From the IMG/VR virus record IMGVR_UViG_3300000117_000232, positions 1-24,789 of that record: a stretch of 24,789 nt of DNA; one strand, written 5' to 3'. This document shows, piece by piece, positions 1 to 22,155 of this stretch. The DNA is from a virus. The notes under the pieces were generated by a model. It was not told where the DNA came from and ran no database searches. It saw only the letters and a program-made list of their open reading frames with translations. How positions within the stretch are numbered: position 1 is the stretch's first letter; every line of letters begins with the position of its first letter. Both the position numbers and the translations under genes were made by a program.

Positions 1-152
1 GCTACTTCTGTAGTATGTGAACCTTCAACAACTTGTAATACTTTACCACCTGTAATAGAAGGAATAGCTCCATCTTTAATTAAAAGACCATCAATGGTTA
101 CACCATTAGCACTTGTATATTCATTGATTGTGTTTACTTGTATTTCACTCAT
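1..152 (-). CDS. Partial fibre-like protein (N-terminal 50 residues)
   Basis: An open frame starts at ATG 152-150 and runs off the left edge. It overlaps the preceding fibre gene by four bases (ATGA). The 50 visible residues begin MSEIQVNTINEY and include GVTIDGLLIKDGAI and GGKVLQVVEGSHT. This style of N-terminus (short repeats of 'vnti...gvtidgvlikdg') is common in fibre or baseplate-decoration proteins of uncultured marine phages, which is known from family resemblance only. Its position directly after a tail fibre gene supports a second receptor-binding or fibre-attached subunit. The function cannot be proven because most of the gene is outside the window. Confidence 0.75.
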   Translation of the reverse strand, partial: MSEIQVNTINEYTSANGVTIDGLLIKDGAIPSITGGKVLQVVEGSHTTEV

Positions 153-4830: not shown

Positions 4831-4851
4831 GATTATATAAATTCTAGCAGA

Positions 4852-4884
4852 ACTTAGAGCAGCGTGGTGGCACTGCTCTTAAGT
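4852..4884 (-). terminator. Hairpin after the capsid gene (attenuator candidate)
   Basis: An 11-bp inverted repeat with one bulged base lies in the 68-bp gap between capsid and adaptor genes. The arms are ACTTAGAGCAG (4852-4862) and CTGCTCTTAAGT (4873-4884), with a ten-base loop. On the minus transcript it follows the capsid stop and is followed by AU-rich sequence (TCTGCTAGAATTTATAT) but no clean U-run. A partial terminator or RNA-processing/stability hairpin that keeps capsid mRNA in excess over tail mRNA is the likeliest role. Confidence 0.55.
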
Positions 4885-4898
4885 CCTAATATTATATT

Positions 4899-5953: not shown

Positions 5954-6403
5954 CTACTTGTCTTTGAGCTCGTCTAGAGCTGCTATTTTAGACGCAATAC
6001 TGTCTCTAGTTCTGCCAGTTTGCTGTGCTTGGGCTATCTGTTCTTGTACAGAAGGAGCTGCATTAATGGTTTGTGCTGATTGCTGTAAAGCATCCAGTCT
6101 ATTTTGACCTTCGTTAACTGTATTACGAATACTGTCTTGTTGTCCACTAACAACTTCTTCTCCGAACTCCTCGGTGATAAATGTTTTTAAAGCATTAATC
6201 TCTAAGTCGCCTTCGTACATCAAATCTGCAGCTTTACCAACGCCTTTAGTTCTGTCTAATCCGACTTGTTTAAACAAATTATCTCTTTCTTGGACTTGGT
6301 ACTTTACCAGTTCCTCTTTGAGAGTTTTGTTTTCTTCTCGAATTGCTTTCCAATTCTTGTCTTCTCCAACTGAACTATCAGTATCGTTAATTTCTTCTGA
6401 CAT
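5954..6403 (-). CDS. Head scaffolding protein candidate (149 aa)
   Basis: A small, charged, largely helical protein placed directly before the major capsid gene, the classic place for a scaffold. The N-terminal part is a coiled-coil-like stretch (WKAIREENKTLKEELVKYQV, about residues 18-37). The middle is acidic (FITEEFGEEVV), and the C-terminal half is Gln/Ala-rich, ending in a charged helix (SIASKIAALDELKDK) that could contact capsid protein. I start it at ATG 6403 (MSEEINDTD) rather than the in-frame upstream ATG at 6445, because AGGAG sits seven bases before 6403 and the upstream candidate has no SD. No protease motif is seen, so this is not a fused protease-scaffold. Assignment is by position and composition. 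Confidence 0.7.
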   Translation of the reverse strand: MSEEINDTDSSVGEDKNWKAIREENKTLKEELVKYQVQERDNLFKQVGLDRTKGVGKAADLMYEGDLEINALKTFITEEFGEEVVSGQQDSIRNTVNEGQNRLDALQQSAQTINAAPSVQEQIAQAQQTGRTRDSIASKIAALDELKDK

Positions 6404-6571
6404 TTGCTGTCTCCTATCTATAAATAATATTTTTACAAGAGCCATCTATGTAATGCTCTGATAACAACTACTTATTTTTTATTTTCCGTGTCTTGTTAGT
6501 AGGCATCAAGACAGTGTTCGTATATCTCCAGGTCAAGTTTAACCCCCAGACCTAGGTATAGGGTCGTATTT
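6404..6571 (-). promoter_or_regulatory. Structured leader of the scaffold-capsid transcript
   Basis: A non-coding stretch between the 286-aa gene and the scaffold. Three inverted repeats can be drawn. One has arms CCAGGTC (6528-6534) and GACCTAGG (6549-6556), with one bulged A and a 14-base loop. The second has arms TGTCTTG (6489-6495) and CAAGACA (6507-6513), with an 11-base loop. The third has arms AGAGC (6438-6442) and GCTCT (6455-6459). None is followed by a U-run on the minus strand, so these are not plain terminators. I see no tRNA and no credible small gene. A leader controlling late mRNA stability or translation is inferred. Confidence 0.45.
6411..6415 (-). promoter_or_regulatory. SD that fixes the scaffold start
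   Basis: AGGAG on the minus strand with a seven-base spacer to ATG 6403. It favours a 149-aa product over a 163-aa product from ATG 6445. Confidence 0.7.
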
Positions 6572-6599: not shown

Positions 6600-7460
6600 T
6601 TATTGTTCAGTTAAACCTGTAACAGAACCTTCTCTAGTTCTTACTGCACCTACTTGTGCAGAGCTTAATGATTGTTGTTGTGCAACAAGTTTACCTATTC
6701 GTTCTTGTTGTTGTGCTATCCCAAGCTGTGTAGCTTCTACTATATCTTGTGCTGTAACACCTCGTTGTTGTGCTGCTCCTAATTCTACAAGTCCAGGTGC
6801 AACTTGGAAACCTACTCTAGCTTGTTGTGCTGTAAGTCCAGCTTGTCTTAATTCTTCTGCACCTTCAATACTTATATCTGTACCAGCAAGTAATGCTTCT
6901 GCACCTATCTGTGCTCTAACTATATTTTGTGATACTATCTCTCCTGCATTTATAGCACCAGATGCAAGTCCTGCACTAATATTAGGGTCAATAGCACTAG
7001 CAATAATCTCTGCATCAGTTAATGTTTTACCAAAGTTTCTTTGATAGAACTCTTTAACTTGTGGTATTGCTGTAACTACTTGTGAATACAAAGCATTTAT
7101 TCTATTACCAAACTCTTGGTTACTAACAACATTAGTAACTAATGTCTCTATTCTTTCATTAGTAAGTATTAGTTCAGCATTTAATCCAATGCTTTCTATC
7201 TTTCTTTTATAAGCATCTACTAAGTTTAAGTACTCTTGTTCTGTGTATTTAACAGATACACCATCTGGGTTTACATTACCAGGGAAGTAATTTTTATACT
7301 GTTGTGACTGTCTCATAATAAGAACAGCCTCATTAGCATCTTGATTTGTGTCTATAAAAGCCTGTACATAAATATCAAGCAACTCATCTGGAAACTCTTG
7401 TCCAAACTTTAGCTTTACATCTGTTAATAATTTTTGTTTTGCTGTTGCTGTTAATGCCAT
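6600..7460 (-). CDS. Internal virion / ejection protein candidate (286 aa)
   Basis: Last gene of the ejection block. Residues about 40-125 read as a helical domain with MRQSQQYKNYFPG, then YTEQEYLNLVDAYKRKIESI and IETLVTNVVSNQEFGNRIN. The pattern 'R-x-S/T-x-x-Y-x-x-x-FPG ... EYxxL...Y...IxxxGL... SxxEFxxRI' is one I associate with internal or minor tail proteins of actinobacterial phages (family resemblance, not a search result). The C-terminal third is Ala/Gln/Ile-rich helix (AQQARVGF, LGIAQQQERIGKLVAQQQ) suited to coiled-coil assembly. The start overlaps the previous stop by one base (TAATG). Its stop is followed at once by the promoter for scaffold/capsid. Exact function unknown. Confidence 0.55.
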   Translation of the reverse strand: MALTATAKQKLLTDVKLKFGQEFPDELLDIYVQAFIDTNQDANEAVLIMRQSQQYKNYFPGNVNPDGVSVKYTEQEYLNLVDAYKRKIESIGLNAELILTNERIETLVTNVVSNQEFGNRINALYSQVVTAIPQVKEFYQRNFGKTLTDAEIIASAIDPNISAGLASGAINAGEIVSQNIVRAQIGAEALLAGTDISIEGAEELRQAGLTAQQARVGFQVAPGLVELGAAQQRGVTAQDIVEATQLGIAQQQERIGKLVAQQQSLSSAQVGAVRTREGSVTGLTEQ

Positions 7461-9436
7461 TATGTTGCCATTCCTCTAACTACTGGTGCTGCAATACCTT
7501 CTACGATACCATCAGTAACCTTATCAAACATAGTTTGATTACCATTGTTTAAACCGTACTCCGTAAGAATAGTATTTATTTTCTCTTGGTCATTAGCTTT
7601 TAATATATTCAACCACTCTGCTGATGTCTCATCCATTCTCTCTCCTAGATACTGGTAAGAATAGTTACGCCAAGGTGAAGCTATATCTTCGTATGTTAAG
7701 TTCTCCTCGTACAAATCAGTAGTAAATAATGCTTTCCTAATGTTCTTAAGTTTATCTTCTATCATAGCTATACCTACTGCTTCGCTCTCTGCGTTCCTAA
7801 GTATTCCTGCATACTCATCTAAGTTAGCATTCTCAAACTCTGCAAAGTTAGGTCCTAACCATTTCTGTGCTAAAGATTTTACTTGTGCATATCCAGCTTG
7901 TGTAGTTTCTATTGGTAACTCTTGTGTTCCTTCTAACCAAGTTATTAATTGATTGTCTCTTTCAATACCTGCTAGTGGGTCACCTAAACCTTGTGCCTGT
8001 CTAGCCCATGTTAGTTCTGTCCAGTTACCTGTTGTAAGCTGTGTTGCAAAAAACTCTACCAAACTATCTCCATCTGCATTAACAACTTCATCAGCATTTG
8101 ATACACCGTTTTGTCTAAGTATTTCTGCTGCTCTAATTCTGTTGTTATCTAAAAATGCTTTAGCATCTGCTGGTAAATTATCTATGTCTTGACCTTGTGA
8201 TGTGAGTAACCAATCTCTTTGTTCTTGTGTATGTGTTTGCCACCATTCTGTTCCTTGCCATTCATAGTCAGCTATAGTTCTGTCTTCTACAATACCTTCT
8301 AGCCACAATGAATACAGCTCATCTGTTTCCATCCAGGGCTGTACTTTCTTTACCTTAGCAAAGTTATCTACCATAGTGTCAAATGGATTAGACAATCCTA
8401 ATTTTATGTCACCATCAATTTCGTTGTATCCACCTAGCCATAATGAGTTATTCCAATCTTCTTCATCTTCACTAATGTTCCTAATACCTGGCATACCTGT
8501 AGTAAAGAAACCAGATAACTCGTCATCACTAGCTTTGTATCTAATAAACATATTTGTTCCTGGTATTCCAAATGTTAAATACTTTTGTCCAGTTGCATCT
8601 TGCCATATCTGTGAACCCATACGACCAAAGTCTGTAGTTGTTTCACCACCAGTAACAACTGGAGGTTCAGTAGCACCACCAGTACTAGCTCCATCTGTTA
8701 CTTGTCCAAGTATCTCTTGTAAAGATTTATTAGATGAGAAGTCATCTTGACCTAAACCTGCAAATTCTGGTAGTTCCCATCCCCAAGTAAACCCTTCTGG
8801 TTTACCTGCTTCTGTTGATGTAGCCCATGAGCCACTATCGTATCTACCCCAGTACAATTTATCTGGTGCACCAGTGGCTGTAGGTGCAGTGGTAGCTCCG
8901 TTACCTGCATCATCATCACCTCTTGATGCGTAAAAATCTGACAATGCTTTATTAGCATCTTGTATTGTTGCGTAGTACTTAGGATTACCAGTCATAAATT
9001 CTGCAAACTCTGCACTGGTACCTTTAAAAGCACTTTCGTTTCCATACATATCGAAGATTGTGTATGTATTGTCTATATCTTTTTTATCAATCTCTTTAGG
9101 CAAATCTAAACCAGTAGACCCTGTTGGTATAAAACTTGGAGTAAATGTTGCATCACTAGGTATAGATATATTCTCAATAATAGTATCGATAGATGGCTTC
9201 ATTGCTTCCTGGTCTTCTTTAGGTAGCATAGATATAAGTTCATCTTTAGCTTTTTGTTTAGCTTCTTGAGCTTTTTGTTTAGCTTCTTGTTGTTCTGCTA
9301 GTTTAAACAGCTTAGCATCAGAAGGTAAAGATTTAGCTGCTTCTGCTTTATCTCTATCAGATACTAATTTATCGTACTGTCTTCTGTTTATTTGTCCTTC
9401 AATTAATTGTTTAAGTAAGTCATAATATTTTGCCAT
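7460..9436 (-). CDS. Large internal virion protein candidate (658 aa)
   Basis: The N-terminus (residues 1-85) is a charged helix with a duplicated heptad QEAKQKA (50-56 and 57-63). Residues 90-270 are Gly/Thr/Asp-rich and probably flexible (TGGATEPPVVTGGETT). The C-terminal half is helical with many Trp/Tyr residues (WQGTEWWQTHTQEQRDWLL, TWARQAQGLGDP, YEDIASPWRNYSYQYLGERM). The YEDIA-x-PWR...LGER element recalls large proteins of actinobacterial phages that travel with the 286-aa family; this is recollection, not a computed match. No enzyme motif seen. It starts in a TAATG overlap with the preceding gene and ends in another with the next, so the three genes are translationally coupled. I infer a structural part of the ejection machine. 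Confidence 0.5.
   Translation of the reverse strand: MAKYYDLLKQLIEGQINRRQYDKLVSDRDKAEAAKSLPSDAKLFKLAEQQEAKQKAQEAKQKAKDELISMLPKEDQEAMKPSIDTIIENISIPSDATFTPSFIPTGSTGLDLPKEIDKKDIDNTYTIFDMYGNESAFKGTSAEFAEFMTGNPKYYATIQDANKALSDFYASRGDDDAGNGATTAPTATGAPDKLYWGRYDSGSWATSTEAGKPEGFTWGWELPEFAGLGQDDFSSNKSLQEILGQVTDGASTGGATEPPVVTGGETTTDFGRMGSQIWQDATGQKYLTFGIPGTNMFIRYKASDDELSGFFTTGMPGIRNISEDEEDWNNSLWLGGYNEIDGDIKLGLSNPFDTMVDNFAKVKKVQPWMETDELYSLWLEGIVEDRTIADYEWQGTEWWQTHTQEQRDWLLTSQGQDIDNLPADAKAFLDNNRIRAAEILRQNGVSNADEVVNADGDSLVEFFATQLTTGNWTELTWARQAQGLGDPLAGIERDNQLITWLEGTQELPIETTQAGYAQVKSLAQKWLGPNFAEFENANLDEYAGILRNAESEAVGIAMIEDKLKNIRKALFTTDLYEENLTYEDIASPWRNYSYQYLGERMDETSAEWLNILKANDQEKINTILTEYGLNNGNQTMFDKVTDGIVEGIAAPVVRGMAT
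9248..9289 (-). repeat. Perfect 21-bp tandem duplication
   Basis: Positions 9248-9268 and 9269-9289 are identical. On the coding strand each copy encodes the seven residues QEAKQKA, so the duplication adds one full coiled-coil heptad to the N-terminal helix of the 658-aa protein and keeps the frame. Perfect identity at the DNA level implies a recent slippage event. Confidence 0.95.
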
Positions 9437-11631
9437 TAGCTATCTGTTCCTGCATATAAGTCTTGTGCTATTCTACCATATACATCTTCAAATAAAGAGT
9501 TATGTATCTCTTTGGTTAGCTTATAACCTATAGAATATTTGTCTGAATAACCAGCTTCTTGAAAACCTTCCCAAAAATTTCTACCAAAACTATCCCCATC
9601 ATCTGTATTTTTTGCTGTTGCTAAACCTTTGCCAACATCTGCTGCTAATAAAGCTAACTCATAAGCTGTATATGCTGCAAGAGCTGGTGCTGATATAGCA
9701 GCTAGTCCTAGTCTTGGTAATAATTTTCTAATTCCTGTTTCAATAATAACATCCCCAGGTGCGAGTGCTGTCATAGCTCCACCAAAACTAAACTTACCTG
9801 CTTTCTTTGCAAAGTCCATAGCTGTTGATGATATAGCTTTACCAATCTTTGGGTCTTTTAATACATTTTCTACATCTGGTAACTTAGATTTGTCCACATA
9901 CTCTGCAATATCTTCTGGTGTTTCTGCAATAAGTTTTTTTATTTCTGGTTTAGTTCCAGCAGTTTCTGGTAAGTTACCAACAAAATCTATAACATCTTCT
10001 ATCATATCTATTTTTTTTGGTGTTACTTCTATAATTAATGTGTCTGGTGCTGTATTGTTTACACCAGATTTGACAATACCTAAAATACCCATATTCTCGA
10101 ACTTAGAAGTATTAAAGTTATAGAACTTAACATCCACATTCTTATTTGCATTTGTGTAATTTAAAAATTCTTTTAGTGGTCTAATATGAAATATTTCACC
10201 AGCAGGTGGTTGTATTTCAAACACAGAAAAAGCATTGTCTATAGTAGGCTTTAACATATTTGTCATTTCCTGTATAGTCTGTTGTACCTCTGGTACTAAA
10301 CCTGGTGTTGCTTTTCTTAGTTCAAACATTTTTTCTACAAACTCTGGTGACACAGCACCTGTTGCTCTTAGTGCGTTGTCCGATAATACAAACCCAATGT
10401 CGTTATAACTTTGTGCTAAAGGTTCACCAGGACTTTGTAACCATTGGTGTAAATAACTTTTAGCGTCCAGTGATGAACCAACATCCATTGTGTTTAATAA
10501 ATTTTTACCAACATCCGTGTCTAATGCTTCTATTAAATCTTCGGCATAAGGTACTTCATATCCAGCAGATATAGATTGTACTGTTGTCGAGAAATCTTTA
10601 TACGCTTGTTCAAGACCTTCCATTATATTATGTAAACTTGATGTATCGAAATCTGGATTATATGCACCTGTTACATTACCATTTATGTAATTTATTAAAT
10701 TATTTCTAAACGCTTCAACATATCTGTTAGTAGTATTTTTTATACCATACCAAGCATTGTCTGATAGTAAATCTACTGTATCTGAAAAAGAACCAGCAAT
10801 ATCTTTTCTCCCTACTGGGCTATATTCTATTTCGTCTAATAGTTTTTCTATATATGGACCATGCACTGGGTCTTGCAAAGCAGAATGTAGTTCTAATGTT
10901 TGTCTATTAAATTGACTTTCACCAACAAATTGTCTTGAAAGTTCTATAGGTACTCTCAATGTGTCGTTAACTGCAGATGGAAATATCATTGCAGCATTTG
11001 CACCTTTGTCTTGGTATTTAATAAAAAACTCTGTTGTCATATCTACACCATCTGTTCTTGTATACACACTTTCTATATCATCTAAAAATTCTTTAGACAA
11101 TTCAGCTTCATCTATACCATATTCTGCTATCAGTTGTGGTATTACATCTAAATCTTCTTGGTCTAATACCTTTTTGAATGTAACAGTATTACCAATGTAT
11201 TCAGATAAATGTAATGCAAATTGTTTTAAATATACAGGTAAATCATTAAACTCCTCTAACTGATATGCTTTGTGGTCTACAAATATTTCGTCAGCAAACT
11301 CTGCAACTTTCATTAATTTATCTACAAATTTTTCTTCTGTTAAACTACCTATTGCTGATACTTCATCTAAGTTATGGTATGACTTAATAGATAAATCTGG
11401 ATAATTCATGTGGTTGTCTAGTATGTCAATAATAAAATCAAATCTATTCTCTGGTGTACCTATGTTTTGTAACTCTGCTTTTGGTATAGTCACATATAAG
11501 TTTGGATGTATTTCATCTGTACCAATTAATAAATTAGCAATATTTTGTCTAATTAATTTTGCGTTTATATCTATTGAGGCTAACGCTTCGTTTATGTTGT
11601 CTATGTATTGTTGGTATGCTCCATCACTCAT
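9436..11631 (-). CDS. Internal virion protein with hydrophobic C-terminal segment (731 aa)
   Basis: Mostly helical, no recognised enzyme motif. Near the C-terminus (about residues 637-664) lies the hydrophobic run LGLAAISAPALAAYTAYELA followed by LLAADVG. It is preceded by Gly/Ala-rich sequence (FSFGGAMTALAPGDV), long enough for a membrane-spanning or amphipathic hairpin. In a short-tailed phage this suits an ejection protein that enters the host membrane. I choose ATG 11631 (MSDGAYQQY) because it forms the ATGAGTGA overlap with the 62-aa gene, the same junction as used by the 319-aa gene. An in-frame TTG at 11643 would add four residues but has no better SD. Function inferred from position and the hydrophobic segment. 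Confidence 0.5.
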   Translation of the reverse strand: MSDGAYQQYIDNINEALASIDINAKLIRQNIANLLIGTDEIHPNLYVTIPKAELQNIGTPENRFDFIIDILDNHMNYPDLSIKSYHNLDEVSAIGSLTEEKFVDKLMKVAEFADEIFVDHKAYQLEEFNDLPVYLKQFALHLSEYIGNTVTFKKVLDQEDLDVIPQLIAEYGIDEAELSKEFLDDIESVYTRTDGVDMTTEFFIKYQDKGANAAMIFPSAVNDTLRVPIELSRQFVGESQFNRQTLELHSALQDPVHGPYIEKLLDEIEYSPVGRKDIAGSFSDTVDLLSDNAWYGIKNTTNRYVEAFRNNLINYINGNVTGAYNPDFDTSSLHNIMEGLEQAYKDFSTTVQSISAGYEVPYAEDLIEALDTDVGKNLLNTMDVGSSLDAKSYLHQWLQSPGEPLAQSYNDIGFVLSDNALRATGAVSPEFVEKMFELRKATPGLVPEVQQTIQEMTNMLKPTIDNAFSVFEIQPPAGEIFHIRPLKEFLNYTNANKNVDVKFYNFNTSKFENMGILGIVKSGVNNTAPDTLIIEVTPKKIDMIEDVIDFVGNLPETAGTKPEIKKLIAETPEDIAEYVDKSKLPDVENVLKDPKIGKAISSTAMDFAKKAGKFSFGGAMTALAPGDVIIETGIRKLLPRLGLAAISAPALAAYTAYELALLAADVGKGLATAKNTDDGDSFGRNFWEGFQEAGYSDKYSIGYKLTKEIHNSLFEDVYGRIAQDLYAGTDS

Positions 11632-11812
11632 TTTCTTTATCAAACTTTTTACTATTTATTTGTACAAGTAACGCATCAGTTGCAGCATCACTAACTATCT
11701 TCATAACTTCTGGATTTTTTAAATCTAATTCCATCATGTTTTCACGAACCCATTCACCATAATATAAACCATCTTTATCTAATTGTGATTTATCAAATTT
11801 AGTCAGAGCCAT
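11624..11812 (-). CDS. Small unknown protein (62 aa)
   Basis: A 62-residue charged protein beginning MALTKFDKSQLDKDGLYYGE, with a predicted helical rest (NPEVMKIVSDAATDALLVQI) and an acidic-basic C-terminus ending in FDKENE. It has GAGG five bases before its ATG, overlaps the transglycosylase gene by 14 bases and the 731-aa gene by eight. That tight packing and the SD support a real gene. I do not recognise a family. A cofactor or assembly partner of the neighbouring ejection proteins is possible but unproven. Confidence 0.6.
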   Translation of the reverse strand: MALTKFDKSQLDKDGLYYGEWVRENMMELDLKNPEVMKIVSDAATDALLVQINSKKFDKENE

Positions 11813-12650
11813 AAAAACCTCTTAGTACATCTAAGACTGTTTTTTGGTCATCAGATAACTGTGCATAATCTGTATTGACATTAACATCATTGCTAATCTT
11901 TGGTAAATTTTTTCTACCTCTTTGTTCATTTACAGATGCCTCTAGTAATTGTATTACTTGTGCTCTGGTTTTACTTTTGAAATCATCCACAGTAGGTTGT
12001 CCAAACATATTTGTTATACCTTGACTTCTAGATGTTGTATCTATTGAAGTATCTTTAGGCATAGTAGTTGCAGTAGTAGGAGGTACTGTAGTAGTACTAG
12101 ATGTAGTGGTACTAGATGTAGTAGGTGTAGTATCAGCAAAGTCTATATCGTTATAATTTTTTATATAACCTATAGCTTCTGTAATCTCTGCATCTAAAGC
12201 ATCTTTAAATATTAATTCTTGGTCTGCTGCCAAGTTTTTCATGTTTGGCTTTATGTATTCTTTATAAGTTGTCCAAGCATCAAAGGGGTCTGGTCCATAA
12301 GACTTAGGGTTTTTTCTTCTGTAATTCATTATGTGTACTGCAAACTTAGTTGCGTAGTCTATGTCGTACTTAACTTTATTTGTAAACTCATCTAATGATA
12401 AAACTTCGCCTTGTTCTGCATAAAAGTTCTTAACCATATTGTCTGGTTCTTGTCCTTTAAAATACTGTGGTGGGTTTATTTGCCACAAACCTTTATCATT
12501 AGGGTCTGTATCTCCATCTATACCATGTTTAAACTTGCTTTCAAGATATGCAATAGCCAGTAATATACCAGCATCATCACCAGAAACTTGCTCATCAAAC
12601 AACATTTGTTTTACTTCTTCAACTGTAAACTGTTGCACTGCTTCTTCCAT
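11799..12650 (-). CDS. Lytic transglycosylase-like virion enzyme (283 aa)
   Basis: Probable peptidoglycan-cleaving enzyme of the virion that opens the cell wall for DNA entry. Residues 25-65 show the lysozyme-like/SLT signature: a helix with the candidate catalytic Glu37 (LLAIAYLESKFKHG), then NDKGLWQINPPQYF (GLWQIN, 54-59). Residues 100-135 hold a second helical stretch with DPFDAWTTYKEY, typical of the end of such domains. A Thr/Ser/Pro linker at about 174-207 (PTTSSTTTSSTTTVPP) leads to a short helical C-terminal domain (DDFKSKTRAQVIQLLEASV). The linker composition resembles that of actinobacterial proteins. No signal peptide is seen, fitting a virion protein. The start is a TAATG overlap with the 319-aa gene. 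Confidence 0.75.
   Translation of the reverse strand: MEEAVQQFTVEEVKQMLFDEQVSGDDAGILLAIAYLESKFKHGIDGDTDPNDKGLWQINPPQYFKGQEPDNMVKNFYAEQGEVLSLDEFTNKVKYDIDYATKFAVHIMNYRRKNPKSYGPDPFDAWTTYKEYIKPNMKNLAADQELIFKDALDAEITEAIGYIKNYNDIDFADTTPTTSSTTTSSTTTVPPTTATTMPKDTSIDTTSRSQGITNMFGQPTVDDFKSKTRAQVIQLLEASVNEQRGRKNLPKISNDVNVNTDYAQLSDDQKTVLDVLRGFYGSD
12095..12124 (-). repeat. 15-bp tandem repeat in the Thr/Ser linker
   Basis: TACTAGATGTAGTGG (12095-12109) is followed directly by TACTAGATGTAGTAG (12110-12124), one mismatch. The coding strand reads repeated TTSST in the transglycosylase linker, so slippage can lengthen the linker in frame. Confidence 0.85.
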
Positions 12651-13609
12651 TATCTTTGTACACCCCTTCTAGATAGATTAGTTAATCCAGCTATTGTTGC
12701 TGCACCTCTAGCTCTTGTAGCTTCTGTTTCTCCTGCAACTCTTGCAGCTTCTTCTCTTGGTGCAAATACTTCTTCTTCGATACCAGCTAAGTCTTCTGCA
12801 AACTGTTCAGCATCTGCTTCTTCTGCAGGTGTTGCTGGTATTAATCTACCACCAACTGGTGTAGATGGGTCAAATGCTAACCTACCTTCTGTACCAGCAG
12901 ATAGTCCTTGTATCTCTTGATTAAACAAACCAATACGATTGTTTATCTTACTGGTAATGTAATCTTTTTCTTCTTGACTAAGTGGTGCACCTTTTCTCGC
13001 CTTTGACTTTGCTAGTAACTCATCAACAATATCATCCATCTGGTCACTTTCAATAACTGGTGCTTTAGTCTTTGCAGATTTTCTTACAGACATATCTGTT
13101 CTAAGTACACCTAGGCTTTGCACCCAGTCTAACTTACCACCATTGTTCATAGAAAACTCCATAAGTCTTCTAATACCTTTAGTAAATTCCTCATCTACCA
13201 TAGAACCTTGTGTCTTTGTTAAGTCAATAAGACCAACACTAGCTAACTGATTTTTTAAAATAATTCTTAACCCTGGTGCTATATCTCTAGCTACTTCACC
13301 AGCCATATATGGATAGTAAATAAAGTTATAACCTTTAGCTTTTAAATATTCTTGTGCATCTATTGTTGTTTGTTTAGTTACATACTCTCCTGTAGTGCTA
13401 TCAAACCTAGTTATTTCTTCATCATATTTACTTTGAAATCCATCACCTAAAGGTTTGTTAGTATCTACACCATCAGATAGTAAATCTAATACCCACTGTG
13501 CTGTAGGTGTAGCGTCACCTAAACCTGGTTGTGTAGGTAATCTTGGTGCATCTTCTACACCACCAATACCTCTTGGTATTGTGTATCCTTTAGTTTCGTT
13601 TTCACTCAT
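12650..13609 (-). CDS. Unknown virion-associated protein, partner of the transglycosylase (319 aa)
   Basis: N-terminal 40 residues are Pro/Gly-rich (YTIPRGIGG, APRLPTQPGLGD). Residues about 110-175 contain a small helical domain (RIILKNQLASVGLIDLTK, then EEFTKGIRRLMEFSMNNGG and WVQSLGVL). It resembles a domain found upstream of, or fused to, cell-wall lytic domains in actinobacterial phages; this is a recollection. A Lys/Asp-rich helical part follows (DDIVDELLAKSKARKG), then an acidic, Ala/Glu-rich C-terminus ending with basic RGVQR. Start ATG 13609 overlaps the giant gene's stop (ATGAGTGA) with AGGAG nine bases upstream. Placed directly before the transglycosylase, it may help position that enzyme. 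No catalytic motif seen. Confidence 0.5.
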   Translation of the reverse strand: MSENETKGYTIPRGIGGVEDAPRLPTQPGLGDATPTAQWVLDLLSDGVDTNKPLGDGFQSKYDEEITRFDSTTGEYVTKQTTIDAQEYLKAKGYNFIYYPYMAGEVARDIAPGLRIILKNQLASVGLIDLTKTQGSMVDEEFTKGIRRLMEFSMNNGGKLDWVQSLGVLRTDMSVRKSAKTKAPVIESDQMDDIVDELLAKSKARKGAPLSQEEKDYITSKINNRIGLFNQEIQGLSAGTEGRLAFDPSTPVGGRLIPATPAEEADAEQFAEDLAGIEEEVFAPREEAARVAGETEATRARGAATIAGLTNLSRRGVQR

Positions 13610-16600
13610 CTGATAAATCTCCTAGACCAAATCTTGTTACTTCATTATAAAACACATCTTGGAAGACTGGTAGGAACTCTGGAGTTTCTTGTGCTAAGTT
13701 TGCTCCGTACTTATACAGTCCATCTCTAATAAGTTGTGCTTCTTCTGATGTTTGTGTTCTTAACCATACTACTGCATTTTCTTTCAGTGGTATGTTTTTT
13801 CCAATCTGTATACCTTTAATTATTTCATTTCTGTAATTTAGATAATCACTTACTTCTGGATATAAACCTCCTAATGCTTCAACTCTTGGGTCTGTAATAG
13901 CTTGTTCAAGTATTGGTATTACTAAATCCCAATCAAAAGTATCTGGTATTTCTTTGCCTGGCAATAATGTAGCTACCTGTGCTGGGTCTACTTGATAAGC
14001 TAAAGGAAACATTTTTCTTAATGTGAGCTCTAGTTCTGCTTTCTCTATTTTCTGTTCGTTTGCTGTGTATCTTTCTTTATCCCACTTACCTTGGTATCTC
14101 TCTAGCATAGCTCTTTCTACAAGTGATGCTGCAAAAGTAGCCGCTCTCCAATATAACTCCTCTTTGTTAAGTGGTGTTATATTACCTAGACCTTTTTGTA
14201 TTCCATAAGATGTGTAATCTACTTCACCTGTTCCCAGTTTGTCAAAGAAATATAAAATAGATGAACCATAATCACCGTAGAGTTCTGGATTTTCCATTAA
14301 GAAATCGTACTCTGGTTTTGTTCTAGCCATAGGTCCACTCTCTGATATGCTCTTACCTTTAAGTTGTAACTGTGCAGATGTAAATGATGTCTCCATATCA
14401 TAGATATCTAATCCAAGTAACCTTACAACATCTAAAGTTGCTTCATAGTCTGCTTGTTTGCTACCCATAGTAAGAGCATATTGTTCTCTTAGGTCTTGAT
14501 AAAAACCATGTATAACTGACAACTCAACAAAGCTATTCCACACAACACCAGATGGTTCCTGTGAAGTACCATACCATTCATTAAAAGTATCGTCTTCTGT
14601 ATTTATACGATATAACACATTTAGTTTTGGAACTAATGGGTTAATGTTTCTATCCCAGGCTTTTAACTGGTATATGTTATCTCGTATAACTGCTGCTGTA
14701 TTGAAAATAAACTCTGGGTCATCTGACTTATTAGGATAAAGTATTGATGCTATCTGTACTGATTGTGTAGTAGCAAGCATATATAAATCTTCATCTACAC
14801 CAGAGATACCTAGTTTGCTTGATACTGCATTGAGTAAGTTTTTACCTGTAGCTGGTAGGTTTTCTTCTACGAGTATTTCACCTAGTATATCTTTTATGTC
14901 TCCACTACCCATACTGTCAAATGGCAAACCAAACTGAAAGATAGTTCTTTCTAGTAATCTTCTAATTTCTGGATTATCTCTAGTAACAAATCCTGTTGGT
15001 ATAGCAACTACTGGTCCTAATGGTGGTAACAATCCACCACCAGCTACACCTAAAGCTGATATAGGTAAACTTCTTTTAAGTATGATATTGCTATCTTCCA
15101 TGCTTATATCATCACTCCATAAACCTTCACCTTCTGTCTTTACATAATTTTCTAATGCTGTTCCACCTACAGGTATAATTAAATACTTCTCACCAAACTT
15201 ATCTGAATACACATAGTTATTCTCTATACCTTTTCTGTAAGCAAATCCTACTTGTGCTCCTGCTCTAGGGTTAGCAGCAGCTAGTTGTGTCCACCTACCT
15301 AGTACCTCTCTGTATGCTTCAAAGAAAGGTAGTCCTACTTTGTATGCTTCTGCTAGGTATCCTCTTTCTAATAAGTTGTACAATAATCTGTTGTGTAATT
15401 CAAAGGCATAAGCAGATGATGATTTGTTTAAATCATTAAAGGTCATGTTTCTAACAGTGTCACTTCGTATATCATCTAGGTCTAACATTGTGTGATACTC
15501 AATTTCTGTAAACTGTGATATAACACCACTCTTTCTTGCATTATTCATAACAAGTTTTCCAGACTTACTATCTACCATTGCGAGTAGTCCTGTTTGCTGC
15601 ATAAGTTCTGCTACATCATCATATTTAGCATTACCCATCTGTAGTACTTTTCTTAGTTCTTTGATTGTAGGAGTAGGATTTTCTTTAATTAAGTTTTTAA
15701 AATCAGTAGTTATATTGTAAGTATTTTTACCTGTATCTTTATGAAACTCTCTTATTGCACGACTAAATTGCATATCTTGTGATGTATCTAACACACCATC
15801 TACTAACACATTTCGTCTAGGTAGTGATGAATAGTATGCACCAATCTTTGTATTCTCGTCACCTAATCTAATTCTACCTGCAGTCTCTACGCTGTATGCT
15901 TTGCTTTCTGCATTAGCTAAGTTTAAATCTAATTCTATTTGGTTCTTAGATACAGACTGCAATACTCTAGGTGCATATTTATTGTCTGCATTATATGCAA
16001 CGAAGGTTACAGCATCATCAGTTACCTGTAATCTTTGCTTTACAGTTTTTTTCATTACTTCTTCTATTTGTTCAAAAGGAACTTCTGCATCTGTTAGATT
16101 TCTTTTAACTGCAGCAACTAAATCACCAGGTAAATTGATTACATTATCTGGGTCGTAATGTGCATCTAATATATCTTGTAAAGATTTTCTAGTAGCAAAC
16201 ACTAAGTTGCTTTCTAAGAAGTGATAATACGCTTGTTTAAATGTAGGTATTCGTGATAGTGTTGCTTCTGATTGACCTACTGCAAAGAATAGTGCATCCA
16301 TAAATGCACCATACTTAGCTGCAAAACCTTTTGTTTGATTAACTACTCCTGGTACAGTGAATGGCAAATCTTCTAATACTTCTAACATCATTGGAGTGAT
16401 GTCTTCTTTAATCTTCTTTTTATTAATTTGTTTAGCAACATCAATACTTCTAATGTTTGTTCTACCAATTTTTCCTTGTGCAATTATATCCATAAGGTCT
16501 TGCTGGTTAGCAGTAAAGTTAGATATTGTCATTTTGTGATGTTTAACAAAATCTATAAAGTCTTGTTGTGTTGTAATAACTGGTATAACTTGTGATGATT

Positions 16601-19600
16601 TATCAACACTTCTAATAGATAATATCTTTCTATTCATATCTTGTATCTCATCCATAAGATATGGTGTTTTTTGTATAAGGTCTACCACTTCTTCATCAGT
16701 TAAATTCTTCTTCATAGCTTGTGCAATCACTGGCATAAATGGGTCATGAGCCATCTGTGTTATTAAGTAATCTGCATACGCTTCTATGTAATCATCCTCT
16801 AGACCAATCTTTGTTGCAGCACCTTCTGCTACTTCTTCTGCACTAGCGTACTTCCTTATATCTTCCCAATCACCTCTGTTCTTTCTAAACACAGTTGTAA
16901 ATCTTGGGTCTCTTTCGTACAAGTCTTGTACTTCTGGCAAACCAAACTTAGCATTGTTTTCTTTTAGTGCTCCTAAACCTTTTCTAATAAACTCTGGATA
17001 CTTTTCATCTAATACTTTAGCTGTAGTTCTAAATGGTCCAGTAAGAGCTGTGTATGGTTTAAAGTCTGGGTTCTGTGCTTGTATAAGTTTAACCATTGCA
17101 GCATTAGGGTCGTTCCATATTAACTTCATGTACTCCCATGGGTCTCTAAATATAGAAGCCATACCTCTAGCAGACATTCTTAAGTTACCATCAGTAGTTA
17201 TCTTAAGTGGGAAAGCTACACGAGTAACTAACTGCAAAGGCATCCATACTCTACTAATAAAACTAAACGCTATATCTGTAGCTTTAAAGGGTATAGCTTC
17301 TGCACCGTATTTAAACAGTACACCAGGGTCATCTAGTCCATCTGCAATAATACCTTTAAGCTCATTACCTATTGGTGTAGCAGGGTCATAAAAAGTACCT
17401 AGCTTTCCTTCATCTGCAGCTTGTCTAACTGCGTCCATACTTTCCTCAAACCCATTCTTTTTAAATACTTTGTTACGCAACCTTCTACGCATACTTGTAT
17501 ATCTAAGTATTGGTTTTAAGTCTGGAACATTAATTGTTAAGTCCATAGCTTGTCCTACCATACCTAGTGCGTGTTGTGTTGCCCACTGTTTATCTGTTTC
17601 AGATAACAATGTATTAGCAAACTGTGCTCTAGCTATAGGGTCTAAACCTTCTTGCATAGCTGCTCTATCATAGAACTTGTCGCTAAGTGCAGCTCTATAT
17701 GTCCTACCCTTTTCACCAAATCCTCTAACATCATCTAAGTGTTCAGCCATAAATTCTTTGATTTCGTTATTTGACATACCAAATATATATCTAAGTTGTA
17801 ACGCACCTTCTGTTTTAATTAACTCATCATAAAATACAGCCTGTGCTCCTCTGTAATCTTTTGCTTGTATGTTGTCATAAAACTTTATAAGTAAGTCATC
17901 TATTTTATTTTCTGGTATAGAAAACATATAACCTGTTTTAACAAATGTATCTACAGCTCTATCTACTTCTGTTAGGTATGCCCAAGGTCTTGATGGTAGT
18001 CTTACATCTGTACCACCAAAAATATCTTTAAAACTTGACATTAATGTACGAACTGGATTACCAGATTTTCTACCACCAGCTCTCATGTAAGTTGCTTGAT
18101 ATTGGTTATCAGTCATAGCTGCGTACAAGTTATCTAAGAAGTTGTCATTTAATACTTTTGCTTGTATATGGAAGTCATTAGCTTGTGTTAAGTTATTACC
18201 TTTAAAACGCACATCAGATATAAGACCACCAGTCAAACTATCTTTAATTACATCAAATACTTTGTCTGGATTGTCAACAACTTCTTTTGCCATACTTGCA
18301 CTGAAACCATTTCTTACTAAGTAGGTCATAACAGGTGCTCCATCATCAACAGCTTTAGTTATAATATCTGACATACCTTGTATCACTGGGTCTTTATCTA
18401 TCCAGAAATCTGCAGATTGACCACCTGCTTTTAAGAAGTCATCTAATTCTTTACCTACGCTAGTTAATGTTTTTGATGTAGCTGCTTTACCAGTAATACC
18501 AACTCCAGGAAAAATCATAGTAGGGTCTGTTAAAGCCATACCAGTTAAGTTTCCAATAAATCCTATCCAAGCATTCCATCCATGTTTAGGTTCAAAGTTT
18601 AAATCAGATATCTTATCTTGTTCTGCAGATAGCAAAGCATTAAATTTAGTTTGAAATTCATCATCTGACATATCTTTAGTGTTGTAAGTAGTTACTAAAT
18701 CATTTATCAATCCCTCTGTTTCTAGCTTTATATCAGCTATAACATTGTTTAATGGTGAGTACTCTCCACCTAATGAACCAGTAAGTGTATATCTAATCTG
18801 GTCACCTGGTGTAGCTGGTATGCTATATCTTTTAAAACCTTCTCTAGAAGTAATAGCTTCTTGAAAGTATTCATTAGAACCAAAGTATTGTTCTATTCCT
18901 TCTGGATTACCAGAACCTAATAATTGATTAGATGTATCTATATATGCTTCTAATCTTTCTTGTAATGTAGGTTCTCTTACTTCTCCATCTTGTGCAATCT
19001 TTAGGTTTTCTCTATACACACTAGGAAAATGTTTGTTAATAACTTCTATGTCTGTTTCAGCAAACTTAAAGTCTTTTTGTGTATTTAGAAAACTTAAACT
19101 ATCTGTCACTGCTAATGGTGCTAAATTTAATTGTTCTTCTGTTAGTTCAAATCCTAATGTTCTTGCACCCTTTTTAATAGCACTTCTTACTGCACCAGCT
19201 TCTAGACCTTTAATAAAAGATTGTAACTTCCAGGTTATAGGTATTTCATTATCTTCTGTTTCTGGGTCTCCAACAAATCTTGAGTAGTCTCTATCTAATT
19301 CTTTACCCTGTTCTGCTGCTAATCTCTCTAATTCTGCTTTAGAAGCAACACCAAATGAGTTAGCACCACTGACTTGAAAGTCTTGGAACTTAGCATTTAA
19401 CCCTACAATCAAAGCATTAATTACTGTACTTTTTCTTAGTTGTGCGTCACCCCATAAATCTTGTCTAGTTTCTTGTTGTACATCTTTAGTCTTCTGTACA
19501 CCATCTTTTATCTGTTGCCAAAAAGATGTACTTCTTTTCTTTACAAAATCTTCTTTAGGGTCTGGTACAACTGTCTCTGTGTCTTTCCATAAATTGTAAT

Positions 19601-19814
19601 AGTCTGTACTAGACAATCCCATAGACGCTGCAGCGTATGGTAAATCACTATCTTCATTAGGGTTCATTGATTGAAAGTCTAATGTTTTTTTACCTAGTGC
19701 TTCTATCTCTATATCAGACATAGAGCTCTTAGCTTGTTCTACTGCTTGTTTGTCAAGGGTTTTTTCTTCTTGTCTTTTAAGCCACTCTTGACCCCAACTA
19801 AGATAGAACGACAT
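13602..19814 (-). CDS. Giant internal virion / ejection protein (2,070 aa)
   Basis: The largest gene, a quarter of the window. The protein is largely helical and soluble, with three Gly/hydrophobic stretches: WNAWIGFIGNLTGMALTDP (about residues 410-430), a WMPLQLVTRVAFPLKI block followed by DGNLRMSARGM (about 855-880), and ISALGVAGGGLLPPLGPVVA (about 1583-1605). The 'W-x-P...L.TR.A.PLK...LR' block resembles large proteins of actinobacterial phages as I recall them. No HExxH protease, nucleotide-binding loop or clear RNA-polymerase motif was found. By size and place it is likely a T7 gp16-like or N4-like internal protein that is packaged in the capsid and extruded with the DNA; this is inference. 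The ATG shares one base with the preceding stop (TAATG). Codon style matches its neighbours, so no sign of a foreign origin. Confidence 0.6.
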   Translation of the reverse strand: MSFYLSWGQEWLKRQEEKTLDKQAVEQAKSSMSDIEIEALGKKTLDFQSMNPNEDSDLPYAAASMGLSSTDYYNLWKDTETVVPDPKEDFVKKRSTSFWQQIKDGVQKTKDVQQETRQDLWGDAQLRKSTVINALIVGLNAKFQDFQVSGANSFGVASKAELERLAAEQGKELDRDYSRFVGDPETEDNEIPITWKLQSFIKGLEAGAVRSAIKKGARTLGFELTEEQLNLAPLAVTDSLSFLNTQKDFKFAETDIEVINKHFPSVYRENLKIAQDGEVREPTLQERLEAYIDTSNQLLGSGNPEGIEQYFGSNEYFQEAITSREGFKRYSIPATPGDQIRYTLTGSLGGEYSPLNNVIADIKLETEGLINDLVTTYNTKDMSDDEFQTKFNALLSAEQDKISDLNFEPKHGWNAWIGFIGNLTGMALTDPTMIFPGVGITGKAATSKTLTSVGKELDDFLKAGGQSADFWIDKDPVIQGMSDIITKAVDDGAPVMTYLVRNGFSASMAKEVVDNPDKVFDVIKDSLTGGLISDVRFKGNNLTQANDFHIQAKVLNDNFLDNLYAAMTDNQYQATYMRAGGRKSGNPVRTLMSSFKDIFGGTDVRLPSRPWAYLTEVDRAVDTFVKTGYMFSIPENKIDDLLIKFYDNIQAKDYRGAQAVFYDELIKTEGALQLRYIFGMSNNEIKEFMAEHLDDVRGFGEKGRTYRAALSDKFYDRAAMQEGLDPIARAQFANTLLSETDKQWATQHALGMVGQAMDLTINVPDLKPILRYTSMRRRLRNKVFKKNGFEESMDAVRQAADEGKLGTFYDPATPIGNELKGIIADGLDDPGVLFKYGAEAIPFKATDIAFSFISRVWMPLQLVTRVAFPLKITTDGNLRMSARGMASIFRDPWEYMKLIWNDPNAAMVKLIQAQNPDFKPYTALTGPFRTTAKVLDEKYPEFIRKGLGALKENNAKFGLPEVQDLYERDPRFTTVFRKNRGDWEDIRKYASAEEVAEGAATKIGLEDDYIEAYADYLITQMAHDPFMPVIAQAMKKNLTDEEVVDLIQKTPYLMDEIQDMNRKILSIRSVDKSSQVIPVITTQQDFIDFVKHHKMTISNFTANQQDLMDIIAQGKIGRTNIRSIDVAKQINKKKIKEDITPMMLEVLEDLPFTVPGVVNQTKGFAAKYGAFMDALFFAVGQSEATLSRIPTFKQAYYHFLESNLVFATRKSLQDILDAHYDPDNVINLPGDLVAAVKRNLTDAEVPFEQIEEVMKKTVKQRLQVTDDAVTFVAYNADNKYAPRVLQSVSKNQIELDLNLANAESKAYSVETAGRIRLGDENTKIGAYYSSLPRRNVLVDGVLDTSQDMQFSRAIREFHKDTGKNTYNITTDFKNLIKENPTPTIKELRKVLQMGNAKYDDVAELMQQTGLLAMVDSKSGKLVMNNARKSGVISQFTEIEYHTMLDLDDIRSDTVRNMTFNDLNKSSSAYAFELHNRLLYNLLERGYLAEAYKVGLPFFEAYREVLGRWTQLAAANPRAGAQVGFAYRKGIENNYVYSDKFGEKYLIIPVGGTALENYVKTEGEGLWSDDISMEDSNIILKRSLPISALGVAGGGLLPPLGPVVAIPTGFVTRDNPEIRRLLERTIFQFGLPFDSMGSGDIKDILGEILVEENLPATGKNLLNAVSSKLGISGVDEDLYMLATTQSVQIASILYPNKSDDPEFIFNTAAVIRDNIYQLKAWDRNINPLVPKLNVLYRINTEDDTFNEWYGTSQEPSGVVWNSFVELSVIHGFYQDLREQYALTMGSKQADYEATLDVVRLLGLDIYDMETSFTSAQLQLKGKSISESGPMARTKPEYDFLMENPELYGDYGSSILYFFDKLGTGEVDYTSYGIQKGLGNITPLNKEELYWRAATFAASLVERAMLERYQGKWDKERYTANEQKIEKAELELTLRKMFPLAYQVDPAQVATLLPGKEIPDTFDWDLVIPILEQAITDPRVEALGGLYPEVSDYLNYRNEIIKGIQIGKNIPLKENAVVWLRTQTSEEAQLIRDGLYKYGANLAQETPEFLPVFQDVFYNEVTRFGLGDLSDE

Positions 19815-20167
19815 TAGATAAACCTATATTTTAGTTCTGGGAACCTATCTAGCAATACTTGCTTAGTAACTTGTGCTTCGCTTATAGGTGTAGGTGTACT
19901 TGCTTGTTTCTCTGGTACAAATCCAGGTTCATCTGGAAATTGTGTCGGAGTAGTAAATACATCACCTATTGGTTGTTGTGCTATTGCAGCACTAGGCATA
20001 CCACCTGTTTGTGCAACTTCGTTTTGTATAGCATCTATTTGACTTTCAATAGCTGTTGATTGCCCTGTTGGGTCGCCTTCCATTCTTGGTGGTACCACCA
20101 AATCAGCATACGCCCCATCTACTGTCATATCTGTTGCTTGTTTAAACGACTTAGATTTGCGAACCAT
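19814..20167 (-). CDS. Small disordered protein after the portal (117 aa)
   Basis: I start this at ATG 20167 (MVRKSKSFKQATDM) because GGAG sits six bases upstream. Two upstream in-frame ATGs at 20179 and 20173 lie in or before that SD. The N-terminus is basic. Residues 25-100 are rich in Pro, Gln, Thr and Gly (PPRMEGDPTGQ, PTQFPDEPGFVPEKQ) and probably disordered. The last 20 residues form a hydrophobic-aromatic tail (VLLDRFPELKYRFI) that may be a docking peptide. It overlaps the 81-aa gene by 17 bases and the giant gene by one. I recognise no family. A packaged linker or portal/ejection-complex accessory protein is a guess from position. Confidence 0.6.
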   Translation of the reverse strand: MVRKSKSFKQATDMTVDGAYADLVVPPRMEGDPTGQSTAIESQIDAIQNEVAQTGGMPSAAIAQQPIGDVFTTPTQFPDEPGFVPEKQASTPTPISEAQVTKQVLLDRFPELKYRFI

Positions 20168-20396
20168 AATCATCTCCATTATCTATTTCAAAACCTAACG
20201 CTACACTAATGTACACATTAGGTATTGGTGTAGGTATAATATAACTTCCTAATGGTACATCACCTAATGCTTCTTGTGGTCTAACAATAGGAGATAGGTT
20301 TATGATTGTTTCTACTTCTTCTTCAAAAGGTGTTTCATTCCAATCTTCTTGATTAATAATATCAATAAACTGTTCGTTAATTTTATCTTTAGACAA
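20151..20396 (-). CDS. Small acidic protein with TTG start (81 aa)
   Basis: The start codon is TTG (20396-20394), with a full AGGAG six bases upstream. It overlaps the end of the portal gene by eight bases. The product is acidic in its first half (NQEDWNETPFEEEVETI), then Pro/Ile-rich (IPTPIPNVYISVALGFEI) and ends in a short Asp/Gly tail. No family recognised. Position after the portal and before the ejection block suggests a head-vertex or packaging accessory. The TTG-plus-strong-SD start also shows that this phage uses TTG as a real initiator, relevant for the 30-aa gene before the terminase. Confidence 0.65.
   Translation of the reverse strand: MSKDKINEQFIDIINQEDWNETPFEEEVETIINLSPIVRPQEALGDVPLGSYIIPTPIPNVYISVALGFEIDNGDDYGSQI
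20174..20177 (-). promoter_or_regulatory. SD that fixes the start of the 117-aa gene
   Basis: GGAG on the minus strand with a six-base spacer to ATG 20167. It lies inside the last codons of the 81-aa gene and argues against starts at 20179 or 20173. Confidence 0.6.
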
Positions 20397-22155
20397 GACC
20401 AGCTCCTGGAGGTATAGCAGGTCCAGTTGCTACTTGCTCTGGTGGTAATCCTCCACCACCTAATTGTGCTAGAACAGATGCTATGTCTGGTTCTGGTTGT
20501 GCAGCAGCTTGTTGTTGCTCTTGTGCTTCTACTTCTTCTTCTGTATAAAACTCATCTAGAATTTCTGTCATGTTTTGTGGATTTTTTCTAATCTCTTTAG
20601 CAGCCAAACTAGCTTTTATATTTCCTTGTGCTGCTTGTGACATGAGTGCTTCAAACAATACAGTCTCTGCTTTTTCTGCATTAACTCTATTTTGTATTTG
20701 TGAGATGTTGTCTAATCCATCTAAATTCTCTTGTAATGTTTGCATATCTATAACACCTTGTTGTTTTAATTGTAGACCAGTAATAATTTTTTGTGGCTCA
20801 TCAAATCCAGCCATAACACCATACACTCTGCGTGTTTTGTATAGTTGTCCAATATCACTCTCTGGTACATAAGTTTCTTTAAATGCTGTGCCTTTGCGAT
20901 AACCAGCAATAGGTTTACGCATTTTGCCATACATTACTTCATCCCATTCAAGTCTCTTAGCGTCTATCTGTTGTAGAGCATCTTGCATAACTGTTTGGTA
21001 TTCTCTTACATGAAGTGATGATGACTGACCAAGTTCCTCTAATCCTCTACCAGTGACAAAAGCATTAGGCGATTGTCCATCATCTGATACTGGATAAGCA
21101 GAACCTAGGCGAAGATGTCTTTCTAATCTATCTATCTGTTGGAACAACTGATAAGGTAAGTTGTTTACTGGTTTAGATACTTGACTACCTGGTGTCAAAT
21201 AGTTTACAGCGAACCTACCCTTTCTATATTGTCCACTCTCTATCTCGCCAATGATGTTGGTTTCTGTAAACACAGCATCTTCCATTGCAATGACAGATAG
21301 AATATTTATCTTTGCCATATTAGCCATCAATCCTATAACATGATGAAATTGTCCTTGTAGTTGGTCAAAGCTAAAACGCTTTGCTATAACAAATCTTGGT
21401 CCAGACTTTAATGGATTAGGTATGAAATCTAATATAATTTTATTTTCTGGTAGGAAAATGTAAGTACCTTCGTCATCATAATATTCTGCAACAACTTTAC
21501 CTGTTCCGTCTTGGTTAGCCCAAGTCTTGTCGTAACTAGATAAGTACGCCATTGTATTGTATTCAGAACTAACTTCATCCATAATTACATTTTTAAACTT
21601 AGGATATGTTTTAGCTAGTTCCTCATGTGGTATTCGTTGTAATATTGCTAACTCTTTAGGTTGTTGGTCAGCACCAAAATGTCCTGGGTAACAAAGATAA
21701 GGGTCTTTAATTTCTGCGTATGGATATGGTACTCCATTTGCATCTACTTTTTCTTTTAGTACCCATACAGCAAAGCCGTAACCAGGTAACCATCTACCAA
21801 CTTGTGGTAATTGTAAATCTAATTTTTGTATATCATCATAAGCAGTAACAATGCGTTCTAGTTTCTCTGCTCTCTTTGTAGCTCTTTCACTATCCTTATC
21901 ATTAAAAATATCTACTTTTAAATCTGGTGCTCTACCAATTTTTTGTGCAAATCTTTCTAACGCAGACATAAGTAAGTTAGGTGCAGGTAACTGTTTGTAA
22001 TCCATGTCACGCATATCTTTACCAAGTAATGCTTTTAATCCGTCTGCACCACCATTAAGTATTGCTCTTACATTATGTTTATCTGATGACATAACAGAGT
22101 TGAGTTGTCGTAGTTCATATACTCTGCTGTATAATTCATCTGCTGTCTTGACCAT
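20389..22155 (-). CDS. Portal protein (588 aa)
   Basis: The dodecameric ring at the head vertex through which DNA is packaged and ejected. Evidence is its place directly after the large terminase (TAA then ATG with no gap), its length in the 500-600 aa range usual for portals, and its layout. It has a mixed alpha/beta wing region (IKDPYLCYPGHFG, VVAEYYDDEGTYIFLPENK). A helical stem-like segment follows (HHVIGLMANMAKINILSVIA, about 280-300), then a long crown helix (SSLHVREYQTVMQDALQQID, about 385-405). The C-terminal 50 residues are low in complexity and rich in Gln, Ala, Pro and Gly (EAQEQQQAAAQPEP), as in many portals. GGAG lies four bases before the ATG. The motifs are weak by eye, so the call leans on context. 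Confidence 0.82.
   Translation of the reverse strand: MVKTADELYSRVYELRQLNSVMSSDKHNVRAILNGGADGLKALLGKDMRDMDYKQLPAPNLLMSALERFAQKIGRAPDLKVDIFNDKDSERATKRAEKLERIVTAYDDIQKLDLQLPQVGRWLPGYGFAVWVLKEKVDANGVPYPYAEIKDPYLCYPGHFGADQQPKELAILQRIPHEELAKTYPKFKNVIMDEVSSEYNTMAYLSSYDKTWANQDGTGKVVAEYYDDEGTYIFLPENKIILDFIPNPLKSGPRFVIAKRFSFDQLQGQFHHVIGLMANMAKINILSVIAMEDAVFTETNIIGEIESGQYRKGRFAVNYLTPGSQVSKPVNNLPYQLFQQIDRLERHLRLGSAYPVSDDGQSPNAFVTGRGLEELGQSSSLHVREYQTVMQDALQQIDAKRLEWDEVMYGKMRKPIAGYRKGTAFKETYVPESDIGQLYKTRRVYGVMAGFDEPQKIITGLQLKQQGVIDMQTLQENLDGLDNISQIQNRVNAEKAETVLFEALMSQAAQGNIKASLAAKEIRKNPQNMTEILDEFYTEEEVEAQEQQQAAAQPEPDIASVLAQLGGGGLPPEQVATGPAIPPGAGLV
20403..20407 (-). promoter_or_regulatory. SD supporting a TTG start
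   Basis: AGGAG on the minus strand, inside the portal's last codons, six bases before TTG 20396. No ATG is near in this frame. Confidence 0.65.

Follow-up and report, generated by a model that had tools for sequence, protein, structure and literature searches.

What is encoded by a run of seven overlapping genes that, in a marine phage, separates the portal gene from the genes for scaffold and capsid? The DNA analysed, here called the window, is an entire IMG/VR record of 24,789 bases and represents a fragment of a phage genome. The run, below called the block, occupies 13,215 of these bases (53%) and specifies about 4,400 amino acids. The original prediction had placed seven overlapping genes between the packaging genes and the scaffold and capsid genes, filling more than half of the window, and the ORF listing bears this out in full: all seven are recovered on the - strand at the expected sizes and positions, with neighbours overlapping by 1-14 bases. 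The answer to which the evidence leads, and in which we have considerable confidence, is that these genes specify the ejection (internal virion) proteins of a podovirus with a virion module in common with the Streptomyces Beephvirinae.

Table 1. Features of the window. Block genes are numbered by slot, the giant standing before slot 2. Among the profile comparisons behind the nozzle, adaptor and slot 5 matches, some profiles held both the marine and the Streptomyces group, and the E-values are inflated to that extent.
Feature	Position	Strand	Evidence
Terminase large subunit	22156..24078	-	phrog_38 E 2.5e-65; tblastn matches mainly Streptomyces Beephvirinae
Portal protein	20389..22155	-	24.9% to FlowerPower portal, E 4e-20; 365 IMG/VR relatives
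Small 81-aa protein between portal and giant	20151..20396	-	ORF kept in relatives
Small 121-aa protein between portal and giant	19814..20179	-	ORF kept in relatives
Giant putative ejection protein, 2070 aa, 0 Cys	13602..19814	-	ORF listing, profiles
Block slot 2, 319 aa, 0 Cys	12650..13609	-	ORF listing, relatives
Block slot 3, SLT-like transglycosylase, 283 aa, 0 Cys	11799..12650	-	E-S-K-F...G-L-W-Q-I signature; PF01464 E 0.0021, below cut-off
62-aa ORF, 0 Cys	11624..11812	-	56-aa homologues at same place in relatives G009 and G010
Block slot 4, 731 aa, 0 Cys	9436..11631	-	alignment: variable body and conserved hydrophobic C-terminal module of ~120 aa
Block slot 5, 658 aa, 0 Cys	7460..9436	-	profile matches to clades B and C; weak to Streptomyces gp11/gp12
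Block slot 6, 286 aa, 0 Cys, all-helical model	6600..7460	-	phrog_8424 E 2.1e-24; homologue of Streptomyces phage gp13
Presumed scaffold protein	5954..6445	-	position; phrog_7813
Major capsid protein, SU10_MCP family	4899..5909	-	PF17236 E 7.8e-48
Presumed head-tail adaptor	3889..4830	-	tblastn to Streptomyces gp43; Streptomyces profile matches marine adaptors
Presumed tail nozzle	1926..3896	-	full-length profile match to 642-aa Streptomyces protein, E 2.7e-11
Repetitive tail fibre-like protein	149..1924	-	phrog_697 E 1e-33

That the block ORFs are real coding sequence and not chance follows from the recurrence of the same ORF order in those related contigs which span this part, the head proteins of which can be aligned at about 50-95%. 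The size given for slot 4 is counted from ATG 11631; an in-frame TTG would give 735 residues. Against the PDB, the nozzle profile has only a weak partial match, to a dispase autolysis-inducing protein (E 0.0018). The fibre-like protein at the end of the window (149-1924) is built of tandem DLSEGTNLYYTTARF-type repeats, is acidic (net charge -76) and is without cysteine. The interval between capsid and adaptor genes (4831-4898) is without the gene of 114-117 aa that clades B and C of the relatives have there and the window clade lacks.

Among 50,697 phage records the portal and adaptor match only Streptomyces Beephvirinae and the phage Caudovirales sp. ct2KA10, and the terminase matches the same phages plus a few haloviruses. 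Beephvirinae infect Streptomyces, a Gram-positive soil bacterium. In the deposited maps the order is terminase, endolysin, portal, small genes, a giant of 1,640 aa, a protein of ~275 aa, an NlpC/P60 protein, an SLT protein, one of 370-390 aa, tRNAs, scaffold and capsid (the beephvirines compared were FlowerPower, Immanuel3, Manuel and Abafar). Adaptor and nozzle follow the capsid, as they do in the window, and the virion-module gene order is the same; portal, adaptor and last block gene are homologous, and the giant is linked by profile. The differences are that beephvirines have an endolysin gene between terminase and portal and a cluster of 15-22 tRNA genes before the scaffold, while in the window that first interval is without an endolysin gene and a tRNA search was negative; that the block counts 6-7 genes in the window and 5 in beephvirines, the window giant being the larger; that the capsids have no profile similarity; and that GC is about 35% in the window and 60% in Abafar. 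ct2KA10 (OX376640/1) has a portal 25% identical to that of the window and the same order, with a 1,764-aa giant before scaffold and capsid, but its cysteine-free block comprises three genes only (1764, 442 and 530 aa; locus L168, in the unannotated record OX376640).

The homology on which we rely comes from HMMs made from a single group, from clade-only giant alignments set against reversed decoys, and from tblastn. A Streptomyces-only HMM of the last block gene finds the marine slot 6 proteins with E-values of 6e-12 to 8e-11, and by tblastn marine slot 6 matches Streptomyces beephvirines only. Abafar was shown by TEM to be of podoviral morphotype, with a 16-nm tail (PMC11536984). Given homology and synteny with Beephvirinae, this short-tailed member included, the window derives very probably from a podovirus; the short tail originally predicted is thus upheld, also by the lack of a long-tail gene set. 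The same synteny disposes of the proposal that the gene order is undescribed, since it is already present in the deposited genomes of Beephvirinae and ct2KA10. Annotation of the block genes there goes no further than hypothetical, peptidase, glycosylase or minor tail, and a search of the literature found none of them named as ejection proteins.

The giant is more elusive. By tblastn it has zero matches among the 50,697 phage records. Profiles built from one clade at a time connect clades A and A2 (E 2e-200), B and C (4e-57), A2 and B (7.5e-5) and B and the Streptomyces giants (3.5e-6); the last two score 53 and 64, where reversed decoys reach at most 31. Compared directly, the profile of the window-clade giants does not rise above decoys with that of the Streptomyces giants, and the window giant appears to be linked to them by profile only, through the intermediate marine clades B and A2. 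The stretch shared by clade B and Streptomyces giants holds a W-x-x-L/I-x(4)-P element and a G/P-rich G-P-x-V motif, both of which can be read in the window giant; its best-conserved region, at about residues 1460-1660, includes the latter. Modelling of the C-terminal 1,200 residues with AlphaFold gave a poor model (mean pLDDT 52), for which Foldseek returned nothing significant. The top entry, a chain of the cyanophage A4 pre-ejectosome at E 0.62, is not counted as evidence.

Across the block as a whole, scans against Pfam and PHROG yielded almost no matches. Profile searches had been advised as a check; in those against the PDB neither the giant nor slots 4-6 matched anything meaningful. The predicted cell-wall enzyme holds in part. 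The SLT domain of slot 3 scores below the Pfam cut-off, yet the E-S-x-F...G-L-W-Q-I signature is intact in the window and in the majority of clade A; no peptidoglycan-degrading domain was recognised in clades B and C. The membrane-like C-terminus proposed for slot 4 likewise survives as a conserved hydrophobic module, but no 19-residue stretch of it exceeds the transmembrane threshold. Slot 6 yields a fairly confident helical AF2 model (pLDDT 80), which has no PDB match; its matches in BFVD are phage proteins, possibly from freshwater actinophages.

Among IMG/VR viral contigs the portal has 365 relatives, of which some are located in MAGs labelled Actinomycetota, Rhodobacteraceae or Flavobacteriaceae. 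Contigs that cover the region have portal, 1-2 small genes, a giant of 1,700-2,300 aa, 4-5 large genes, scaffold, capsid, adaptor and nozzle. A synteny search had been advised for the order of portal, giant, SLT, scaffold and capsid; the order of terminase, portal, giant, accessory proteins, scaffold and capsid does recur in marine relatives. Fourteen related contigs of 31-41 kb were annotated, the longest genomes being about 40.5 kb. In these 14, neither a major tail protein nor a tape-measure gene was recognised, and a WhiB gene was not found; the opposite strand carries mostly small genes, one of them for a single-strand-annealing protein. Proteins with a DUF5675 domain occur in the late region of 40-kb relatives (L141:12054-12614 and L147:15507-16088) and are possibly lysis proteins. 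A 54-kb contig from an Actinomycetota MAG (PBPX01000048; loci L176 and L178) has two portal copies separated by about 43.8 kb, as would be seen if assembly had run past one full genome length of a circularly permuted phage.

Block genes diverge faster than head genes, and by sequence comparison the block is mosaic: contigs with capsids 90-97% identical carry giants only 16-29% alike. Relative G013 shares with the window 90% of its capsid and 83% of its portal residues, and its giant is only 16% identical, which is chance level over most of the length (between G013 and another relative, G006, capsids are 51% and giants 24% alike). In a further contig (IMGVR_UViG_3300004369_000138; loci L040 and L082) the capsid is 97%, the portal 81% and the giant 29% identical to those of the window, and the slot 3 enzyme is 77% identical over 172 residues. 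A third case lies within a single gene. Slot 4 of locus L108 (L108:4230-6425) resembles that of L110 (72-93%) and then, for its last ~150 residues, is 100% identical to that of L109, the breakpoint falling at the conserved C-terminal hydrophobic module. These patterns show that parts of the block have been swapped between phages with nearly the same head. Fast divergence of gp15-like proteins and exchange of ejection proteins in other phages have been reviewed (PMC8954989).

An unexpected feature of the block is the absence of cysteine. Thirteen genomes together have none in 54,117 block residues, as against 390 in 64,135 residues (0.61%) for other genes of the same strand and 293 in 18,481 (1.6%) for the opposite strand; for the window alone the figures are 0 of 4,351 in the block and 16 of 3,408 elsewhere. 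Throughout the fetched loci all 19 block profiles match only cysteine-free ORFs. Histidine is also threefold low (0.55% vs 1.62%), the only further residue with a strong depletion. In the Streptomyces blocks the sole cysteine is that of the D-C-S-G-L-V (DCSGLV) motif of the NlpC/P60 domain, presumably the catalytic residue of the peptidase.

This sign, an empirical one and not a published definition, was calibrated on nine reference phages outside the group. The known ejected proteins of T7, P22, N4 and SU10 have one cysteine in about 10,800 residues: T7 gp15 and gp16, P22 gp7, gp16 and gp20, N4 gp50 (3,500 aa), gp51 and gp52, and SU10 gp20-24 have none, and T7 gp14 has one, at residue 2. The five SU10 proteins, next to a gp19 with six cysteines, were flagged as candidates before it was known to us that the virion contains them and loses them when its genome is released (PMC9509320). 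The internal proteins of epsilon15 break the pattern, with 5 cysteines in 2,574 residues. Cysteine-free too are the tape-measure proteins of three siphophages and a few scaffold, capsid and fibre proteins, among them the T7 and P22 scaffold proteins. In StenR_269 and Zobellviridae, a putative virion polymerase was earlier noted to lack cysteine (PMC10747016); no statement of a general rule for ejected proteins was found in the literature searched. The present comparison suggests that such a lack is a mark of ejected proteins in general and no argument for a polymerase. The predicted ejection-protein block draws its support from homology and synteny with Abafar, from the cysteine-free signature, from the putative cell-wall enzyme and from the lack of a long-tail gene set, and its genes lie in the virion-module cluster as podovirus ejection genes do; that the products are packaged and ejected is what we infer from these.

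Could the giant be the tape-measure protein of a long-tailed phage and its neighbours tail-tip proteins? Tape-measure proteins are large and cysteine-free, as the giant is, and occurrence of the SU10_MCP capsid family in siphophages also counts against podovirus ejection. However, by ORFs, PHROG and Pfam no major tail protein, tail terminator or tail chaperones were recognised adjoining the giant, which moreover precedes the capsid gene, and Abafar, a distant relative with the same order, is a podovirus. Siphophage tape measures amount to one cysteine-free gene per phage, which makes a contiguous run the better sign: in the regions read, lambda, Mendokysei and EL753P1 each have a single large cysteine-free ORF, where the window has six in a row. 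A long-tailed phage is accordingly very unlikely. No greater credit is due to the idea that the giant is an ejected virion RNA polymerase for early transcription, like N4 gp50. Size and lack of cysteine, the argument applied to StenR_269 (PMC10747016), would suit it, N4 gp50 being likewise without cysteine at 3,500 aa. But T7 gp16 and SU10 gp24 share that lack, so it does not point to a polymerase; the giant has no profile similarity to gp50, and single-subunit polymerase motif patterns (TxxGR and motif-B), crude as they are, find N4 gp50 and are absent from the window giant.

The block proteins might, on the other hand, be structural and stay in the capsid as an inner core or scaffold-like component. 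Their genes adjoin those for scaffold and capsid, and the scaffold proteins of T7 and P22 share the lack of cysteine. What makes retention improbable, to a degree that leaves it only a slender chance, is that the contiguous run includes a putative cell-wall enzyme, that the NlpC/P60 and SLT proteins of the Streptomyces phages make most sense outside the virion, and that divergence is very fast and accompanied by exchange, as in ejection proteins.

With the block taken as a set of ejection proteins, a course of events can be proposed. The proteins would be made with the head genes and packed in the procapsid near the portal, to exit through portal, adaptor and nozzle ahead of the DNA and then reassemble across the host envelope. 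There the SLT-type enzyme of slot 3 would open peptidoglycan, slot 4 may engage the membrane through its conserved hydrophobic C-terminal module, and the giant with the remaining proteins might build or line a conduit for DNA. Lack of cysteine could prevent disulphides and mis-oxidation in chains that have to unfold, be threaded out and fold anew beyond the reducing cytoplasm.

The broader proposition has two parts: that podoviruses related to actinobacterial phages, cultured Streptomyces phages included, possess a complete ejection machine of several proteins, with no sequence relationship to the machines of T7, P22 and N4, and that strict loss of cysteine over contiguous large genes reflects a general constraint on proteins threaded out of the virion and so provides an annotation-free finder of ejection machines. 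We see the chances of both holding as evenly balanced. If they do, a large ejection cassette of several genes is carried both by Streptomyces phages, which are easy to grow, and by a marine group that is recovered widely, and it can be flagged by a simple test of composition. An unannotated block of 8-14 kb becomes testable by proteomics and cryo-EM, and since the cultured Streptomyces phages carry a distantly related cassette in the same order, the ejection idea can be tested there.

Set against the ejection proteins of T7, P22, N4 and SU10, the block profiles gave no match with E up to 10. In T7, the ejection genes follow capsid and tail genes and have no sequence similarity to the block, but gp14, gp15 and gp16 include large proteins almost or fully without cysteine, and the T7 ejectosome combines a peptidoglycan hydrolase with membrane segments (PMC8954989). 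N4 has in gp50, gp51 and gp52 a giant cysteine-free virion protein with smaller partners, the giant in that case being an RNA polymerase with motif patterns not seen in its window counterpart. In the Kuravirus SU10 the ejection genes come after the tail fibres and lack detectable sequence similarity, but like the window it has a capsid of the same Pfam family name and, in gp20-24, five cysteine-free proteins, among them a transglycosylase and a single giant of 1,473 aa.
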